Assembly (NCBI RefSeq): GCF_009649845.1
Contig: NZ_WJIE01000012.1
Span: 62,001 to 126,000, forward strand
From: Polyangium spumosum
GTDB taxonomy: Bacteria > Myxococcota_A > Polyangia > Polyangiales > Polyangiaceae
DNA: 64,000 nt
Direction of reading: 5' to 3'
Shown: positions 1,695 to 30,346 of the stretch, in pieces
Layout: every line of letters starts with the position of its first letter
How positions within the stretch are numbered: position 1 is the first letter of the stretch
The notes under the pieces: model-generated
Database searches by the model: none
Seen by the model: only the letters and a program-made list of their open reading frames with translations
What the model was told of the DNA's origin: nothing
Translations under genes and position numbers: made by a program

Positions 1695-3308
1695 ATGACT
1701 CGCGCCCCTGCTCCCAGGCCCCCCGCGTTCGTCCACGGTGCGCCGTGCGCGGGCCTCGTCGCCCTCGCAGCGCTTTCGGGGTGCACGAGCGCCAAGACCG
1801 AGCCGACGCCGAGCCCGAGCCCCGCCGCAGAGCTGATGCCCCCGGCGCCCCCCGCCGCCGCCCCCGCGCCCGCCCCCGCTTCGGCGTCCGCTGCCGCCGC
1901 ACCCGCACCCGCGCCTGCCCCCGCGCCCGCGGCGCCGCGTATCTGGTCGAAGGGTCGTTTCGCCTGGATTCACCCCCAGCCCGGCGCGAGCCGCGCCTGG
2001 CTCGGCTACCTCGCCCTCGGCAGCTCCGTGCCGCTCAAGGGCGGCAGCGTCGAGGCCGCGCAGGTCAAGGGCTTCGGCGGCTGCGACGCCTGGTACGCCG
2101 TCGAGCCGCGTGGTTACGTCTGCGCCGGCGCCGCCGCGACGATCGACGAAAAAGACCCGGCCGTGGTCATCCTGCGGCGCGACGCGGCCGACGTGAGCTC
2201 GCCCTGGCCCTACCAGTACGGCGAATCCATCGGCGCCCCGCGTTACGACCACATCCCCACGCGCGCCGAGCAACAGGCCGTCGAATGGGACCTCGAGCGC
2301 CACGAGGCCAAGGTCGAGAAGGCCCGCGCCGCCGCCGGGGATCCCGAGGCGATCGCCGCCATCGACAAAGCCCTCGTCGGCGTCGACCTCGCCCCCGCCG
2401 GCGAAGGCCCGCCCGAGCTCTTGCCGTTCGGCCCACTCGTGCGCGAAGCGCGCAGGTCGGTCCAGCTCGGCTCGACGATCGCCTTCGTGCGCTCGTTCGA
2501 ATCCGGCGGCCGCACCTTCGTGCTCACGGCCGACCAGGCGATCATCCCGAAAGATCGCATCAAGCTCTACCCACGCTCGACGTTCCACGGCGTCACACTC
2601 GGCGAGGACGTCAAGCTCCCGCTCGCCTTCTTCCGCCAGAAGCCTCGCGCGAAATGGAAAACGGGCGACGACGGGAAGCTCGTGAAGACCGACGAGACCT
2701 TCCCGCGCCTCGGCTGGGTCGGCCTCACCGGCGCGAGGATCGAGCAGGACGGCAAAACGTTCGTCGAGACGAAGGAGAGCGGCGTGTACGTCCTCGCCGA
2801 GGACGCGCAGATCGTCGAGGCCGTCACCGAGGCGCCGTGGCTCAAAGCCAAGGACCCATCGACGAGCAAATGGGTCGACGTGCGGGTCCTGAATGGGACG
2901 TTCGTGGCTTACGAGGGCCTGCGCCCGGTGTACGCGACGATGATCTCCCCGGGCCGCGGCGGCGTCCCGTATCCGGGGATCGATCCGCTGAAGACCGCGT
3001 CCACGCCCGTCGGCCTCTTCCGCGTCGACGGCAAGTTCCGCACGGCGTCGATGGTCTCGAGCTCCGACGAGAACCTCGTGCACGCCGAGGTGAACTGGGT
3101 CCTGAACTTCAGCGGCCCCCACGCGCTGCACGGCGCCTACTGGCACGACGCCTGGGGCGAGCCGAAGAGCGGCGGCTGCGTGAACCTCGCGCCGATCGAC
3201 GCGAAATGGGTCTTCGACTGGACCGACCCTTCGGTGCCGGAGGGCTGGCACGGCATGCGCGCCGTGAAGGAGTTCGGGCAGAGCACGATCGTGCGGATCC
3301 GCCGGTAG
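1695..3308 (+). CDS. L,D-transpeptidase (YkuD) lipoprotein
   Basis: 537 residues. The N-terminus has a lipoprotein signal (AALSGC) followed by a Pro/Ala-rich tether of about 60 residues, which would anchor the enzyme to a membrane while reaching peptidoglycan. The C-terminal 130 residues carry the YkuD catalytic signature: His residues in HALHGAYWHD, then SGGCVN with the nucleophilic Cys at residue 495. The family forms 3-3 crosslinks in peptidoglycan or attaches proteins to it in the periplasm. The middle 300 residues (about 70-370) are unassigned. The gene is monocistronic, with a structured repeat directly after its stop. Start chosen at the ATG preceding the signal peptide. Confidence 0.88.
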   Translation: MTRAPAPRPPAFVHGAPCAGLVALAALSGCTSAKTEPTPSPSPAAELMPPAPPAAAPAPAPASASAAAAPAPAPAPAPAAPRIWSKGRFAWIHPQPGASRAWLGYLALGSSVPLKGGSVEAAQVKGFGGCDAWYAVEPRGYVCAGAAATIDEKDPAVVILRRDAADVSSPWPYQYGESIGAPRYDHIPTRAEQQAVEWDLERHEAKVEKARAAAGDPEAIAAIDKALVGVDLAPAGEGPPELLPFGPLVREARRSVQLGSTIAFVRSFESGGRTFVLTADQAIIPKDRIKLYPRSTFHGVTLGEDVKLPLAFFRQKPRAKWKTGDDGKLVKTDETFPRLGWVGLTGARIEQDGKTFVETKESGVYVLAEDAQIVEAVTEAPWLKAKDPSTSKWVDVRVLNGTFVAYEGLRPVYATMISPGRGGVPYPGIDPLKTASTPVGLFRVDGKFRTASMVSSSDENLVHAEVNWVLNFSGPHALHGAYWHDAWGEPKSGGCVNLAPIDAKWVFDWTDPSVPEGWHGMRAVKEFGQSTIVRIRR

Positions 3309-3315
3309 CGTCGCG

Positions 3316-3417
3316 CCGGGGCTTCACCCCGGACCCGACGAGGGGCTGTCCGCCCCTCGACCCGGACCAGGGCAAGCCCTGGACCTCTGGTGCATCGACC
3401 GCGTTGCGGTCGATGCA
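3316..3417 (-). repeat. structured palindromic dispersed repeat, copy 1
   Basis: Lies between the convergent transpeptidase and reverse transcriptase genes. Read on the minus strand it has four hairpins in order: a perfect 12-bp stem with 3-nt loop (3391-3417, stem arm tgcatcgaccgc), ccagggcttgccctgg (3367-3382), a ggggcggacagcccc-type stem (3342-3355), and a ccgggg...ccccgg stem (3316-3332). A 46-nt block (3342-3387) is identical to 30164-30209 in opposite orientation. Could act as a bidirectional terminator or be a REP-like mobile repeat. Confidence 0.75.
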
Positions 3418-3425
3418 AAGGGAGT

Positions 3426-5108
3426 TCAGCGGGGGATTTCGAGGAAGGCCTTCGCGAGTTGCATCGCCCGCTCCGGGTCCACCATGTTCAGGTAGGCGAT
3501 CTTCCCCTGCAGGTACGCCTCGAAATGGGGGATGTTCTCGCGGTTCTGCGTAGCGAGGCCGGTCTTCTTCGCGGCGTGCAGGATCGCGCGGAGCTTGCGG
3601 ACCTCCTCGCGCGGCATCCCGAGTTTGTCGTTCACCACGATCCCGGTGACCTCTTGCCGGCCGCCGGCGTGTTGCACACGACCCTTCTTCGGGTTGATGG
3701 CGAAGCCCTCCTCCTGCACGATGTGCCGCACCCGCGCGAGCAGGATCCCGAGGTCGCTCCGGCCCTTCTTCTGGCCACCCTTGCCGTCGTCGATGAGCTC
3801 GTTCGCCGCGGAGAACGTGAGGTCGTCGGCGTACCGCGTGTACGTCCAGCCCATCTTCCGCGTCATGCCCGTGAGGCGCCGATCGAGCTTGCGGGCGACC
3901 AGGTTCGATATCGCCGGGCTCGTGCACGCGCCTTGCGGCAGCCCGCGCTCGCCGACGGCCACCCAGTACGTCGTGCCGTCGTAGACGACCTTGCGCCGCG
4001 GCGACTCCGTGCAGAGCAGCGCGAAGATCGTGGCCACGGCGGGTGAATACCCGATCGATACGAAGAGCCCGCGGACGCGGCCGAACGTGATCGTCGGGAA
4101 GAAGTCCGACAGGTCGAGGTTCACCACCGTCCCCCGCCCGAGGTGCGCTCGCGCATTCGTCACCGTCGAGCGGCCCTTGACGAACCCGTGCGCCTCGCTC
4201 TCCACCGAGAGCTTCGCGAGCACGTTCTGGAGGATCCATTGCTGCACCTTCGCGAGCGCCTCGTGCGGGGCCGAGAGCAGGCGCATGCCGCCCGAGCGCT
4301 TCGGCACCTCGAAGTACACGTAATGCGGCTTCTCGACCGCGTCGTTGTGGTAGCAGAGCCAGCGCAGGCGCGGGATCGGAAGCGCGAGGGCCTTCGCGAC
4401 CTCCGCGGGCGTCGACAGCAGGGGCAAACCCTGCTTCTGCAGCGCCTCGACGTTCGCGCGACGATCCCCGAGGCTGCCGGACACGCCGCGGCCGAGGAAG
4501 ATGATGTCCTCGGCGCGCCGCCTGGCGACGTCCTCGGCGCGCTTCTTCTTGCGCTCGGCGGCGAGGCGCTTCTTCTCGGCCTTGCGCTCGGCCTTCTGGC
4601 GACGGAGCTCCTCGATCGCCTCGTCGGCCTTCTTGCGGGCCACGACGGTCGCCATACTCGCGGCCTCGTGGTGCTTGAGCCAGAGATCACCGACGCGGTG
4701 GATCTCCTCGATCTGCGGCTCCGTGAGCAAGCCGCGCAGGATGAGGCCTCGATCGATCAGCGCCGTGCGCTCGTCGCTCTGCGGCGGGATCGTGTCCACG
4801 CGCCCGATCCACGCCGTCTGGTACGGGTTGATCTTGAGCGCGCGCTTGCGCATCTCGTCCGCCGACAAACCGAGGATCCCCGACGTGTCGTACGGGTCCT
4901 TCGGCTTCGGTTTGTCTTTTTTCTTCGCAGGCGTCGCCGCCGCGGCAGGCGCGGGGTTCGTCGTGGTGAACGTCGCGACCGCGCCGCCCGTCGTCGTCGA
5001 CTTCGTCGACCCCGCCTGCGGTTTGTCGCCCTGATCGTTTTTCCCGGGCTCGCCCTCGCCGGGTTTGCCGGTGCCGATGAAGGACTTGACTTTGTCCCAG
5101 AAGCCCAC
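3426..5108 (-). CDS. ret: retron reverse transcriptase
   Basis: 560 residues, GTG start at 5108 with GGGAG 5 nt upstream. It makes the branched RNA-DNA hybrid (msDNA) by priming from a 2'-OH of its own msr RNA. Visible signatures: NARAH at 318-322 (the retron NAxxH motif), NLDLSDFF with D332 and D335, LPQGACTSP, the catalytic YADD at 426-429, and VTG at 487-489 (retron msr-recognition region). There is no maturase/HNH tail, which argues against a group II intron RT. The N-terminal 210 residues are extra: a Lys/Pro/Ala-rich low-complexity stretch (20-72), a helical part, and a strongly charged helix (about 157-200) likely to be a coiled coil or nucleic-acid binder. Last gene of the retron operon, directly after msr-msd; an RT with long N-terminal extension resembles the myxobacterial Mx162/Sa163 enzymes. 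Confidence 0.95.
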   Translation of the reverse strand: MGFWDKVKSFIGTGKPGEGEPGKNDQGDKPQAGSTKSTTTGGAVATFTTTNPAPAAAATPAKKKDKPKPKDPYDTSGILGLSADEMRKRALKINPYQTAWIGRVDTIPPQSDERTALIDRGLILRGLLTEPQIEEIHRVGDLWLKHHEAASMATVVARKKADEAIEELRRQKAERKAEKKRLAAERKKKRAEDVARRRAEDIIFLGRGVSGSLGDRRANVEALQKQGLPLLSTPAEVAKALALPIPRLRWLCYHNDAVEKPHYVYFEVPKRSGGMRLLSAPHEALAKVQQWILQNVLAKLSVESEAHGFVKGRSTVTNARAHLGRGTVVNLDLSDFFPTITFGRVRGLFVSIGYSPAVATIFALLCTESPRRKVVYDGTTYWVAVGERGLPQGACTSPAISNLVARKLDRRLTGMTRKMGWTYTRYADDLTFSAANELIDDGKGGQKKGRSDLGILLARVRHIVQEEGFAINPKKGRVQHAGGRQEVTGIVVNDKLGMPREEVRKLRAILHAAKKTGLATQNRENIPHFEAYLQGKIAYLNMVDPERAMQLAKAFLEIPR

Positions 5109-5178
5109 GGCAACTCCCGCTAGATCGAGGTTGCAACCACACGCATCACCCGAGCGTTCGGGCGCGTGATGGATCCAT

Positions 5179-5222
5179 CGTTCGACGCGCCGTCCAGCCC
5201 TCCAAGGAAGCCCGTCCGCCCG
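5179..5222 (-). repeat. retron a2 inverted repeat
   Basis: 44 nt at the 3' end of the retron RNA; complementary to a1. Begins on the plus strand with cgttcgacgcgc and ends with ccgtccgcccg, both blocks also found in reverse complement in a1. The a1/a2 duplex brings the branch G next to the start of the reverse-transcription template. Confidence 0.88.
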
Positions 5223-5254
5223 ACTACTCGCCTAGGACCACGACCGATCACCGA

Positions 5255-5326
5255 GGCCCTAGGCCCCCTACCTGCATCCAGACCCATGGGTCCGCTGAGT
5301 GGATGCAGGTTGGGGGCTTTAGGGCC
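5255..5326 (-). other. msd hairpin with palindromic apical loop
   Basis: Arms 5255-5280 and 5300-5326 pair along about 26 bp, interrupted only by a small internal loop (agg versus aaag side) and one mismatch. The 19-nt apical loop (5281-5299) starts with the perfect 12-nt palindrome gacccatgggtc (5281-5292). This would be the double-stranded part of the msDNA. Confidence 0.85.
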
Positions 5327-5399
5327 CAAAGAACATCGGGCGCGGGGACGCATGGGGGAACGAACTCCGCCACGGCGGAACGCCGCAGCATGGTGGGCT

Positions 5400-5445
5400 C
5401 GGGCGGACGGACCTCCTTGCAAGGCTGGACGCGAGCGCGTCGAAC
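5400..5445 (-). repeat. retron a1 inverted repeat
   Basis: 46 nt at the 5' end of the retron RNA, starting 15 nt after the stop of the SWIM-protein gene. Pairs with a2 at 5179-5222; differs by a 3-nt insertion (tcg) and four mismatches. Confidence 0.88.
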
Positions 5446-5460
5446 GAGACGACAACATTT

Positions 5461-7569
5461 CTACAACGATTTCCTACCCAAAAGCCAGGCCAGACAGAGC
5501 ACCGACGCGCGTTCGGCGCGGAACCGATCCGCGATGCGCTTCACCTCCGCGAGCACGTCGGGCGGCAACGCGAGCCGCTCTTCCACGGTATCGCTCGGGC
5601 TCCTCGTCGTGAGCGCGCGCGCGAGCGTGGCGTCCGCCATCGAGATCGCATTCGTCCACGATCGCGCCGACTGGATCTGCGGCATGGCCACGTCCCACGC
5701 CTCCTCGAGCACCCGCGACACGGTGGTGTTCTTGCGATTCGCCACCTTGCGGAGGTCATTGAGGATTGTGATCGGGATGGAAAAGCCCTCGCCCGACGAC
5801 CACTTCGACACCTTCGGCGGCTCGGGCGCGGGCTCGGGCGCTCGCATCTGCGGGAGGGCCCGGCTCGAGAGGACCATCTTGAGCGCCAGCAAATGCCGGC
5901 AAGGCCCGGCGCGCAGGCCACTCTTGTAGAAGTACGAGCACGAGCACTTCGCCTTCTTGATCGCGAGGTCCTCGTCGAAGATCGCCTCGCACCCCGTGCC
6001 CTTGGCCTTGCCGACGACCGCGCGCCGGCCGTCCGCGAGCAGCTCGTCCCGATCGATCGTGACCGCGTTTGTCCTGACCATCGCGCGGCCCTCGACGAGC
6101 TCCGGATGCTCGGGCCCGATGAGCGCCTCGCTCAGCACGGAAGGCATCACCTGCCGGTAACGATAGACGCGATCGGCGTGGTCGTAGATGAGCTGCCCGC
6201 GCTTCGCGAGCGCGTGCAGCGCGGGCACGAGGTTCTCCTCGGAGGCGCCCGTCGCCGCGGCGATCGCCGGTAAGGTCGCGCGTTGCTCGCTCTGGAGGAA
6301 CCTGTCCGCCTGCTGCATGGTGCGCACGTCCGGCTCCCACGCGCCCGCGAGCAGATCGAGCCCCGAGCCGCTCGTCCAATCGTTGGTGGTCCAGCCGCTC
6401 AGCGCGAGCACGAGGCGCATGTCGCCCATGTGCGCGATCCAGATGCTCGGCAGGCCCGATCCGAGCAGCCGCACCTCGACGCGCTCGCAGAGCGGCAGCA
6501 CGCGAGCGAGCGCGAAGAGCCGCCGCCGGCCCCAGATCTTCACCTCCTCGGTCCGATCGTGCACCGAGGGCGCCGAGCGATACGGCCCGAGCTTGCCGCT
6601 CGATCCATCGCCGCCGATCTCCAGCCCGCCGTCGTAGACCGGCCCGCGCGACGGGATCTCGATCCCCCACGGATCGAGGATGATCTTCGGCGCCTTGCCC
6701 GGCGTGAGCACGAAGCGGATGCAACGCGGCCCGCTCTTCTCGCGGTGGCGCTTCAGGTGCGCGAGCATCGCGTACACGACCTCGACGGGCAGATCCACGC
6801 GGCGGCTCGGCAAGCACGTCGAGGCCTGGATCTGGCCGAAGCCCCGCAGCCACGAGGGAGGCAGGTCGATCTTCTCCTCGCGGTAGTCCGCCAAACCCTC
6901 GACCTTCACGTCGAAGCCGGCCGGATCCACCGAGAGGCGCGTCTTGCGGTAGCTGCGCAGCGTCTGGAAATGCTCGTAGAGCGCGATCGAGTAGTCGACG
7001 TTCGTCGTGCCGAGCCCCGCCTCCTGCGCGCCCACGAACGAGCCGCGGTCCACGGACAAACAGCCGTAGCTCGACTCGTCCTTGGAGAAACACTCGAAGA
7101 AGACGACATCGGGCGCCACGGTCACGACCGGATCACAAGGCACGAGGTGGCGGAAGAGCTCGGGATCGTTCCGCGCGAGCTCGTTCGCCCACTTGACGCG
7201 CGCGTCCCAGTAGAGCCGATGCATCTTGCGGAAGTCTTTGTCCAGGTTCGGCGGGATCGGCTCCTTCGCGAGCCGCGCCATCTCGGCGCGCTTCGCCTGG
7301 TCGAAGAACTGCGCCTTGAGCTCTCGCTCGCGCTCCTCCTCGGCCTTTTTCCACGCCTGGTACGCGGTCTTGTCCTTCTTCCGGAACTTGAGGTCGCCGA
7401 CGACCACGTCGTGCAGCGCGCTCATCGCCTCGCGGAAGCGGATCGCGTCCTTGAGCTCGGCGTCGAAGAAGGTCTTCGGCCGCGCGAGGTTCGGAGAGAA
7501 ACGCACGAGCAGGCTCTGCGCCGCCCCGAGCACGCCGCTCTTGCCCAGATAACGGAGATCGACGTTCAC
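5461..7569 (-). CDS. retron accessory protein with winged-helix and SWIM zinc finger
   Basis: 702 residues. GTG start at 7569 overlaps the HEAT-gene stop (GTGA) and has a strong GGAGGAG upstream. A SWIM zinc finger of the CxCx(n)CxH type is present: C542, C544, C557, H559. SWIM domains bind nucleic acid or partner proteins. About 60-100 residues before it, a segment beginning RFLQSEQRATL and ending RVYRYRQ reads as a winged helix. The first 200 residues include a charged helix (KKAEEERERELKAQ). The last 110 residues look like a ribbon-helix-helix or helical end (FSIPITILNDLRK). No nuclease, ATPase or transmembrane motif seen. Placed between the HEAT gene and msr-msd; WH-SWIM plus HEAT is, as I recall, the partner pair of type XIII retrons. 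Likely the msDNA-binding or effector subunit (inference). Confidence 0.88.
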   Translation of the reverse strand: MNVDLRYLGKSGVLGAAQSLLVRFSPNLARPKTFFDAELKDAIRFREAMSALHDVVVGDLKFRKKDKTAYQAWKKAEEERERELKAQFFDQAKRAEMARLAKEPIPPNLDKDFRKMHRLYWDARVKWANELARNDPELFRHLVPCDPVVTVAPDVVFFECFSKDESSYGCLSVDRGSFVGAQEAGLGTTNVDYSIALYEHFQTLRSYRKTRLSVDPAGFDVKVEGLADYREEKIDLPPSWLRGFGQIQASTCLPSRRVDLPVEVVYAMLAHLKRHREKSGPRCIRFVLTPGKAPKIILDPWGIEIPSRGPVYDGGLEIGGDGSSGKLGPYRSAPSVHDRTEEVKIWGRRRLFALARVLPLCERVEVRLLGSGLPSIWIAHMGDMRLVLALSGWTTNDWTSGSGLDLLAGAWEPDVRTMQQADRFLQSEQRATLPAIAAATGASEENLVPALHALAKRGQLIYDHADRVYRYRQVMPSVLSEALIGPEHPELVEGRAMVRTNAVTIDRDELLADGRRAVVGKAKGTGCEAIFDEDLAIKKAKCSCSYFYKSGLRAGPCRHLLALKMVLSSRALPQMRAPEPAPEPPKVSKWSSGEGFSIPITILNDLRKVANRKNTTVSRVLEEAWDVAMPQIQSARSWTNAISMADATLARALTTRSPSDTVEERLALPPDVLAEVKRIADRFRAERASVLCLAWLLGRKSL

Positions 7570-29141: not shown

Positions 29142-30020
29142 ATGTGGACCGAGGCGCGAATTGTCATCATCAACGACCGTATTCCCGGAGGGCCCCAGAC
29201 GATCCTCGGTCCTGCCGGGTGCGGGCCGGACGTGGCGGTCCTCGACGAGGTCGCAGACGCTACCGTCATCACCCTGGACGACACGGACGAACGCCTGGCG
29301 CTCCTCCAGAGCCTTCTCGAGGAGCGGGGGCTCCGCTGTTCCGTACGCCGGAACGACCGCTTCACCGACGAGGAGCTCGAAGCGGCGCGGCTGCTCGTCA
29401 TGGAGTACGACACCAACGCCACGGTCTTCGCGGGGCCCATGATGGGCACGACGTACGACATGTCCGACGCCTGCAATCGGTGCGGCGCCGGGGCCCGGCA
29501 GACGTCCGCGCTATTCATCGACGGCGAAATGCTTCCCAGACTGGAAGGCCGGCGCGCGGCCACGACGTCCCACGAAGAACCGCTCGTGGACGAGAAGCTC
29601 GCCGCAGCCCTGGCGCTGAGCGGCGCGACGGGGCTCTCGTTCCGGGACGTCTTCGCGGCTTTCGAGGAGCGGGGCTTCCGGATCCCGTGGAGGCAGGTCT
29701 GCGCGACGCATCCCCTGCCGCCAATGTCGCCTCGATCCACCGGGATCGAGCATTACGAGCCGTGTCCGTGTGGGCGGAGTTGCTTCACCGGGAAGGAGGA
29801 GGTTCCTCTCCGCCTCGCCTATCGCGCCTCGGACCTCGCCGACATCCGCGACGTGAACGTCACCTGGGAATGGTACGGCATCTCGAAGTACACCGGCGAC
29901 CTCTCCGAGTCCGTCCTCCCTTACCCCCTCTTCCTCGTCACCCCGAAGGTCCGCCGCATCTTCCTCGACGCAGGCATCACTGGATTCGACTGGCTCCCGA
30001 TCCGGGTCGTCGACGAGTAG
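29142..30020 (+). CDS. double-CXXC immunity protein (SitI-like), module 2
   Basis: 292 residues; ATG 29142 with GAGGT upstream, 20 nt after the toxin stop. Paralog of the protein at 24860: C111/C114 in ACNRCGAGARQTSAL; the second Cys cluster is altered to C208-P-C210-GRS-C214. Conserved end GFDWLPIRVVDE. Predicted cytoplasmic, binding and neutralising the toxin encoded just upstream (inference from family and gene order). Confidence 0.85.
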   Translation: MWTEARIVIINDRIPGGPQTILGPAGCGPDVAVLDEVADATVITLDDTDERLALLQSLLEERGLRCSVRRNDRFTDEELEAARLLVMEYDTNATVFAGPMMGTTYDMSDACNRCGAGARQTSALFIDGEMLPRLEGRRAATTSHEEPLVDEKLAAALALSGATGLSFRDVFAAFEERGFRIPWRQVCATHPLPPMSPRSTGIEHYEPCPCGRSCFTGKEEVPLRLAYRASDLADIRDVNVTWEWYGISKYTGDLSESVLPYPLFLVTPKVRRIFLDAGITGFDWLPIRVVDE

Positions 30021-30131
30021 AGGCCACGACGCGCGTGATTCTTCACCCGCGCCCCGGGCACACGACCCTGCCAACCAAGACAGCCGCGCTGCTGGTTCTG
30101 CTGGCAATGCGGCTTCTTCGTCGGCCTGCTC

Positions 30132-30234
30132 GAAAAACTGCGCATCGCGCAGTTTTTCAACCTGAGGTCCAGGGCTTGCCCTGGTCCGGGTCGAGGGGCG
30201 GACAGCCCCCGCGGGGTCCGGGGCAGCGCCCCGG
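30132..30234 (+). repeat. structured palindromic dispersed repeat, copy 2
   Basis: Same four-hairpin order as 3316-3417: perfect 12-bp stem with 3-nt loop (30132-30158, arm gaaaaactgcgc), ccagggcttgccctgg, a ggggcggacagcccc-type stem, and ccggggcagcgccccgg (30218-30234). Block 30164-30209 is identical to copy 1. The first stem has a completely different sequence but the same size, so structure rather than sequence is kept there. Nothing else recognised in the 326-nt gap 30021-30346. Confidence 0.75.
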
Positions 30235-30346
30235 CTCTGCGCCTGCCGGATGAGACCAATCCCTCTCACAAGCCTCTTGTGTTCCCCCTCGCCTCATGGC
30301 ACCGTTCTGCGCGCTCAGGACAGACGACCTTCGGGAGGAACGTACC

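Follow-up and report, generated by a model that had tools for sequence, protein, structure and literature searches.

A family of composite, REP/BIME-like four-hairpin repeats in Polyangium, frequent between convergent genes

Two copies in the analysed window

The window, the whole stretch of 64,000 nucleotides of Polyangium spumosum analysed here, contains two copies of a palindromic repeat (Table 1). Copy 1 occupies the gap between two convergent genes. According to open reading frames and gene calls, it directly follows the TAG stop codon (3306-3308) of the forward-strand gene with an L,D-transpeptidase domain, and its end (3417) is 8 bp from the stop codon (3426-3428) of the reverse-strand gene for a type XIII retron reverse transcriptase (RT). 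The predicted fold of 3305-3425 was better than those of shuffled sequences on both strands (z -5.2 on the forward and -5.3 on the reverse strand, 0 of 200 shuffles as good), and no Rfam family matched the window at gathering score. The covariance model described below matched copy 1 at 3306-3417 (118.2 bits) and copy 2 at 30130-30244 (126.3 bits).

Copy 2 is a truncated form of a larger unit, because its alignment with an intact unit of the same genome (locus L144) ends inside the spacer (30264 to 30062) and the covariance-model scan found no second, right arm nearby in the window. The gene upstream of copy 2 (window 29200-30260) has many similar copies; for one of these, in the same genome (G000 C1:717788-718853), a 78% match extends over both the gene and the repeat that follows. 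Among 11 other loci with a similar gene, 8 had no core match and two had one elsewhere in the locus.

A sequence-only reading had noticed a 46-nt block identical between the copies in opposite orientation, and this is exact: all 46 nt of the one are the reverse complement of the other, and the next base differs on each side. The 12-bp perfect stems with 3-nt loops that it reported are also present in both copies. Its statement that each copy starts with this stem holds on the forward strand of copy 2 only; when both copies are read the same way round, each of them ends with the stem. The stem sequences, said to differ completely, mostly do so, but three loop-adjacent pairs (CGC/GCG) are identical in both.

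Table 1. Positions of the repeat copies, their parts and the genes discussed (window positions unless a contig is named)
Feature	Position	Strand	Basis
Gene with L,D-transpeptidase (YkuD) domain, 3' end abutting copy 1	1836..3308	+	gene call; PF03734 E 5.1e-11
Copy 1, solo four-hairpin arm, D of CCGC class	3309..3417	+	sequence read directly; covariance-model match; MFE fold
Copy 1 hairpins	A 3316-3332, B 3339-3359, C 3367-3382, D 3391-3417	+	all four in predicted MFE fold
Copy 1 shared 46-nt block (most of hairpin B and hairpin C)	3342..3387	+	computed identity with copy 2
Copy 1 terminal hairpin D, 12 bp, loop GTT	3391..3417	+	stem arms 3391-3402/3406-3417
Type XIII retron RT, convergent gene of copy 1	3426..5108	-	RVT_1 E 2.4e-18; PADLOC RT_XIII E 5.4e-155
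Strongly folding region in place of the retron ncRNA	about 5109-5460	-	z -10.5
Retron SWIM partner	5461-7569	-	PADLOC SWIM_XIII E 1.9e-166
Copy 2, truncated inverted-pair unit (outer end with GGTCTCATC, full left arm, ~70 nt of spacer)	30062..30264	-	local alignment to intact unit in L144
Copy 2 terminal hairpin D, 12-bp stem, loop GAT, AAAACTGCGC class	30132..30158	-	stem arms 30132-30143/30147-30158
Copy 2 shared 46-nt block	30164..30209	-	computed identity
IS200-like Y1 transposases, one full-length and one broken	G000 C42:2448-2804 (L011), C35:3881-4093 (L012)

Architecture, fold and range of the family

An arm of the family consists of four consecutive hairpins, A-B-C-D, over about 112 nt, and the 46-nt block is its middle. 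The complete unit of about 320 bp is an inverted pair, in which an arm, a spacer of about 90 bp and an inverted arm follow each other with the D hairpins facing. The 79 arms grouped in the P. spumosum genome form 63 elements, namely 47 solo arms and 16 inverted pairs; 13 of these pairs have exactly 90 nt between the model matches, and the spacers of the pairs are visibly similar. Terminal inverted repeats, as expected of a MITE of a DDE insertion sequence, are present, the arms being inverted throughout the pairs. The outer ends of the best-preserved pairs read CTGAGCATKGGTCTCATC (CTGAGCAT..), on both sides in L169 and L140 (one change) and on one side in L144; this motif has 23 matches in the scanned loci, 21 followed by an A hairpin and 2 not. 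In most of the arms, 203 of 207 of which were anchored, the conserved sequence starts some 10 bases ahead of hairpin A.

The left and right arms differ within the pairs. Hairpin C is GGGC..GCCC in 34 of the 51 paired arms of the left D class (GCGC..GCGC in 4, other in 13) and GCGC..GCGC in 42 of the 58 of the right D class (other in 16). As for hairpin D, the preservation of a stem in other copies, which the sequence-only reading had proposed to check, is widespread without being universal: a perfect stem of at least 7 bp with a 3-nt loop was found in the D region of 185 of the 207 arms and was lacking in the other 22. These stems are of a ATGAACTGCGC type (69 arms), a AAACTGCGC/AGAACTGCGC type (70), a CCGC type (21), a CGACTGCGC type (7) and others (18), and the D-stem differences are mostly recurring classes rather than copy-by-copy drift. 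The CCGC type, to which copy 1 belongs, accounts for 21 of 83 solo arms and for none of 124 paired arms. Flipping of the hairpin came into consideration, as the loop triplets looked like reverse-complement pairs, and was rejected, since they are directional in arm orientation (GAT 69 against ATC 1, and TCC 47 against GGA 3, over the 139 arms of the two main D classes).

A covariance model (R1, 116 positions) was built from 38 arms. Over the 34 named pairs in these arms, 97.7% of the cells are paired, against at most 48.0% in slid controls, and 15 of the 34 pairs are changed on both sides, against at most 3. One of five fold measures pointed the opposite way: further pair types numbered 21, fewer than the 23.9 of the shuffles, of which 497 in 500 were as high. 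C-G to U-A and G-C to C-G changes are seen in hairpins A, B and C, and hairpin D gives most of the double-sided changes, though much of the change in D tracks the stem classes and does not represent independent compensations. As judged from the alignment, the double-sided changes show that the predicted fold of the arm is kept. The idea that the fold is kept while the sequence changes, which had been drawn from the two window stems, thus stands for the family, but the window stems themselves represent two module classes and not free drift. One unit was also predicted to fold very strongly as single-stranded DNA (z -13.2, 0 of 100 shuffles as good).

The core is not limited to two occurrences, a prospect that the sequence-only reading had raised: in the P. 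spumosum genome a 45-nt core pattern is found 6 times exactly and 10 times at up to 3 mismatches, with 0 for the reversed control. Using R1, we found 80 arms in this draft genome (10.76 Mb, 61 contigs; E <= 1e-3, 150 candidates scored) and arms in all five other Polyangium genomes, each of which reached the limit of 150 scored, so that 6 of 6 carry the family. Over the order, 6 of 183 genomes matched at E <= 1e-5, all of them Polyangium, and the 177 others gave no match with 20 candidates scored each under strict filters. Similarly, in a family-level sample of 41 genomes only the 2 Polyangium genomes matched and 0 of the 39 others did (E <= 0.01, 90 candidates each, strict filters). The exact 22-mer of hairpin C (core) occurs in 54 contig stretches of the species-genome collection, all from Polyangium (P. 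fumosum and strains y55x31, 15x6 and 6x1). In one relative, G002 (two contigs), sequence-pattern counts gave 229 and 28 matches to two D-hairpin classes and 0 for the reversed controls. The family is genus-wide and abundant. Within the collections covered it is confined to Polyangium, at a search sensitivity that leaves room for weaker relatives in other genera. Among titles and abstract beginnings of the open-access literature on Polyangium, myxobacteria, Sorangium cellulosum and convergent REP termination, we found no prior description of the family.

Genomic placement and variation at one site

To place the elements among genes, we used a codon-usage gene finder trained on 744 kb of P. spumosum sequence. 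Among the 61 elements of this genome with a gene on both sides, 39 are convergent (one of them overlapping a called gene), 13 tandem and 9 divergent, whereas the 488 gaps without an element in the same sequence comprise 64 convergent, 325 tandem and 99 divergent ones (39/61 against 64/488 convergent, Fisher p 5e-17). In other Polyangium loci, orthologous sites included, 53 of 69 elements are convergent against 26 of 257 gaps, and 12 more elements have no gene on one side. Overlap with a called gene is rare (1 of 63 P. spumosum elements and 1 of 81 others). A stop codon faces the A side of 36 of 47 P. spumosum solo arms, within 26 bp in 28 of them, and the D side of 40 of 45. The solo arms of this genome are convergent more often than its pairs (34/45 against 5/16, p 0.002), though the pairs of the other loci are mostly convergent too (33/45). 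The solo copies of the CCGC class are convergent in 20 of 23 classifiable cases (6 of 7 in P. spumosum, 14 of 16 elsewhere). On the other hand, 22 of the 61 P. spumosum elements are not convergent.

This placement is typical of REP-like elements, since it matches that of convergent REPs in P. entomophila and S. wittichi, which are mostly within 20 bp of both gene ends according to an excerpt of PMC3733652, and that of pneumococcal repeats, whose enrichment between convergent genes is described in part of PMC3049150. Convergent enrichment is also expected from neutral or parasitic insertion filtered by selection.

On contig C1 of G002 (13.24 Mb), the middle half contains 85 of the 90 core matches; none falls in the end regions of roughly 0-2.3 and 11.5-13.2 Mb, and 10-11.5 Mb holds one. 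The strand of the core matches switches near 6 Mb (Fisher p 3e-4 for a cut at 5.7 or 6.0 Mb, 0.011 at 6.3 and 0.006 at 6.6, the cuts being post hoc), and the 28 pattern matches of the CCGC class divide into 9 minus and 4 plus on the left and 3 minus and 12 plus on the right (p 0.02). By eye, the inverted pairs show no clear strand bias among the matches listed. GC skew (20 samples) places the origin and terminus unclearly, so we make no claim on replication from this polarity.

The site of copy 1 was compared within the genus by searching with window 2600-4200, a query that included the repeat. Since a locus was identified as orthologous from its matching flanks on the two sides, occupancy was not a precondition. 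The gap is occupied by the family in 6 of 6 species with different architectures. P. spumosum carries the plain A-B-C-D arm. In G003 a further hairpin sits between A and B, and in G005 four additional modules of about 86 bp separate C from D, an array also present in L054. The site holds a full inverted pair in G004, one arm of which contains a module of about 86 bp, whereas in G001 and G002 two pairs flank a stretch of unrelated sequence. The array in L054 (1530-1911) comprises 4.4 tandem copies of an 86-bp unit with 95% matches. The 86-bp module, with its own hairpin (CGACTGCGC-NNN-GCGCAGTCG), was seen inside some arms (L054, L033, L036, L050 and L056), and another extra hairpin module (GGGGCTACGCTCGGC or close) between A and B in L129, L135, L136 and L179.

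Other comparisons (L020 and L064) revealed a pair in one species where another has a solo arm at that site. One empty site was found in a relative (L056), where P. spumosum has an element starting directly after a stop codon (L073); the right edge of the empty site is blurred by tandem repeats. By eye, these repeats of about 21 bp (GTCCGCCATGGC...) lie directly downstream of the element in L073 and of the empty site in L056 and differ between the species. The other compared loci were chosen for containing the repeat, so their occupancy is biased. At a single fixed site, close species thus differ in which whole hairpin modules they carry and in how many.

Origin, related systems and possible role

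The earlier suggestion of a REP-like mobile element was right in kind: the family has many dispersed palindromic intergenic copies with a conserved fold, often as inverted pairs and by gene 3' ends. We consider it likely that this is an untagged composite REP/BIME-like non-autonomous repeat, specific to the genus, tolerated and perhaps useful at gene 3' ends. The inverted pair would be, or would have been, a mobile unit that is not autonomous. Its remnants may be the solo arms whose D hairpin is of a type found in pairs, and the CCGC solo arms like copy 1 would form a separate class. Copies presumably survive mainly where no promoter or operon is interrupted. Transcribed hairpins would then fold at mRNA 3' ends and may slow 3' decay or aid termination from both sides.

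Dispersal, inverted units and the one empty site point to past mobility, which is inferred mainly from the dispersal because only one empty site was seen. The longest direct repeats shared by the flanks of 62 inverted pairs were 9 nt in two pairs, 8 nt in three and 7 nt in 11, and shuffled flanks are expected to give 0.7, 3.3 and 8.2, plus 0.4 longer, so no target-site duplication above shuffled flanks was found in these pairs. L169 has a single suggestive 9-bp direct repeat at the exact unit ends. No autonomous insertion sequence with the same ends was found in a scan of most of the collected loci (all but L001-L012 and L067-L099).

These data bear on a reading with a little less than an even chance, in which the elements are purely parasitic (MITE/REPIN-like) and bring no benefit, convergent gaps are simply where they are tolerated, and the fold serves only single-stranded-DNA transposition. 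It overlaps with the REP/BIME-like reading preferred here and differs only in denying a 3'-end role, so the two are not exclusive. The dispersal, the inverted-pair units and the very strong predicted fold of a unit as single-stranded DNA are consistent with it, and the pneumococcal enrichment is read in this way in part of PMC3049150. It is disfavoured by the lack of a mobilising enzyme and of target duplications in our searches, by the keeping of the copy 1 site in all six species, and by the higher convergent share of solo arms over pairs in P. spumosum, although the pairs of the other loci weaken this last point.

At the other extreme, the solo arm could be a bidirectional terminator selected at convergent gene ends, with movement incidental. 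Arms abutting stop codons on both sides of convergent gaps, the strong predicted folding of both strands of copy 1 and the solo-only, mostly convergent CCGC class agree with this idea, which we nevertheless consider unlikely. TTTT lies within 12 nt in 2 of 34 cases after D and in 0 of 34 after A on the other strand, and a classical intrinsic terminator is not supported since there is no U-tract. Moreover, only a few per cent of the convergent gaps of the genome carry an arm by rough extrapolation, which argues against a general terminator, and more than a third of the P. spumosum elements are elsewhere than between convergent genes.

Far less probable still is a genuine REP/REPIN family that owes its movement to a RAYT tyrosine transposase. 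Inverted doublets with a spacer, singlets and a location downstream of genes do match REPINs and REPs as described in excerpts of PMC3116915 and PMC3733652, and REP-RAYT systems have a transposase gene flanked by two inverted REPs according to part of PMC2817692. However, a profile search of the genomes for the transposase domain (Y1_Tnp, PF01797) at E <= 0.001 gave no match in G002, G003 and G004; two matches were obtained in P. spumosum (G000), one in G001 and one in G005. The full-length ones are 152-aa frames, which we take to be the size of IS200 transposases; the second G000 match contains a stop, and the G005 match covers positions 63-121 only. The tyrosine transposase proposed to accompany the repeat was therefore not found beyond short-frame or partial matches in 3 of 6 genomes, and a RAYT as present mover is unsupported in the other three. 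On reading the printed sequence of the two G000 loci, no arms were noticed, and their neighbours appeared to be a candidate serine recombinase (L011) and a candidate insertion-sequence fragment (L012). The arm is built of four hairpins, not of one of 20-40 bp, and no tag is conserved before hairpin A, as GTAG (GTAGCG) occurs there in 26 and CGTC (CGTCGCG) in 12 of 201 arms. Barring an enzyme that escapes the Pfam model, a RAYT is unlikely as the present-day system in G002-G004.

Least probable of all, and barely credible, is copying of the arms by the neighbouring type XIII retron RT, with a single-stranded or reverse-transcribed intermediate; the family would then be a short retro-element of bacteria whose enzyme is domesticated and passed on vertically. 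In favour of this, the array lies immediately next to the stop codon of the RT, and all six species have the gap occupied. The five relatives possess both the RT, at 88-94% amino-acid identity along its full length, and the ncRNA region, at about 93%. However, this is one site among 63 P. spumosum elements, shared by descent and effectively one event, the ncRNA region resembles the unit no better than shuffles do (score 10 against a shuffle mean of 10.8, 162 of 200 as high, in simple two-base-block shuffles), and no other match to the RT was found in 1.88 Mb of collected loci, which are only part of the genomes. With one site among 63 and no likeness of the unit to the retron ncRNA, the adjacency of the retron to copy 1 is a probable coincidence.

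Returning to the REP/BIME-like reading, the family shares with REP/BIME repeats the high copy number, palindromic and intergenic nature, inverted dimers and a fold conserved despite sequence change, as well as the position close to both gene 3' ends that part of PMC3733652 describes for two species. It differs from them in the four-hairpin arm of about 112 nt, in having no conserved GTAG or CGTC tag, in that no RAYT was found, and in internal modules that are gained, lost and tandemly repeated. REPINs are alike in that the inverted doublet with its spacer is proposed as the mobile unit and singlets as remnants (PMC3116915, in excerpt), but the Polyangium unit is about 320 bp long, its left and right arms differ and no RAYT was found; the solo-only CCGC class also misfits singlets as mere remnants. 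CGTC REPs and untagged REP-like repeats offer a precedent, in an excerpt of PMC3733652, for REP-like placement without a dedicated transposase, though the Polyangium family has composite arms and no conserved terminal tag. Because the tag and the single hairpin are both lacking, it stands outside the tagged REP super-families. In build and placement it is also similar to the BOX elements of Streptococcus pneumoniae. As far as part of PMC3049150 describes them, these composite repeats may lack one of their modules or carry up to several tandem copies of it, show enrichment between convergent genes and sometimes supply a stop codon. The Polyangium family shows such modularity at one site, where P. 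spumosum has no extra module and L054 and G005 have four. Unlike BOX, the family consists of GC-rich four-hairpin arms in inverted pairs and was found only in Polyangium. As far as tested, it works like REP/BIME with BOX-like modularity and is not a RAYT system.

With regard to function, parts of PMC3049150 and PMC3733652 discuss whether REP-type repeats of other organisms act as attenuators or stabilise mRNA. In Polyangium, 3'-end protection or assisted termination would be plausible secondary effects on a mainly tolerated repeat. The alternative suggestion of the sequence-only reading, a structured RNA end, would be compatible with the position after the stop codon and the predicted folding of both strands. 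The solo-only CCGC class is the best candidate for a 3'-end role.

REP-like repeats have so far been classified mainly by a terminal tag and RAYTs, and neither was found in the Polyangium family. Its copies form a natural series on which two questions can be studied, namely the effect of a hairpin at a gene end and the means by which such repeats spread when no transposase is obvious.
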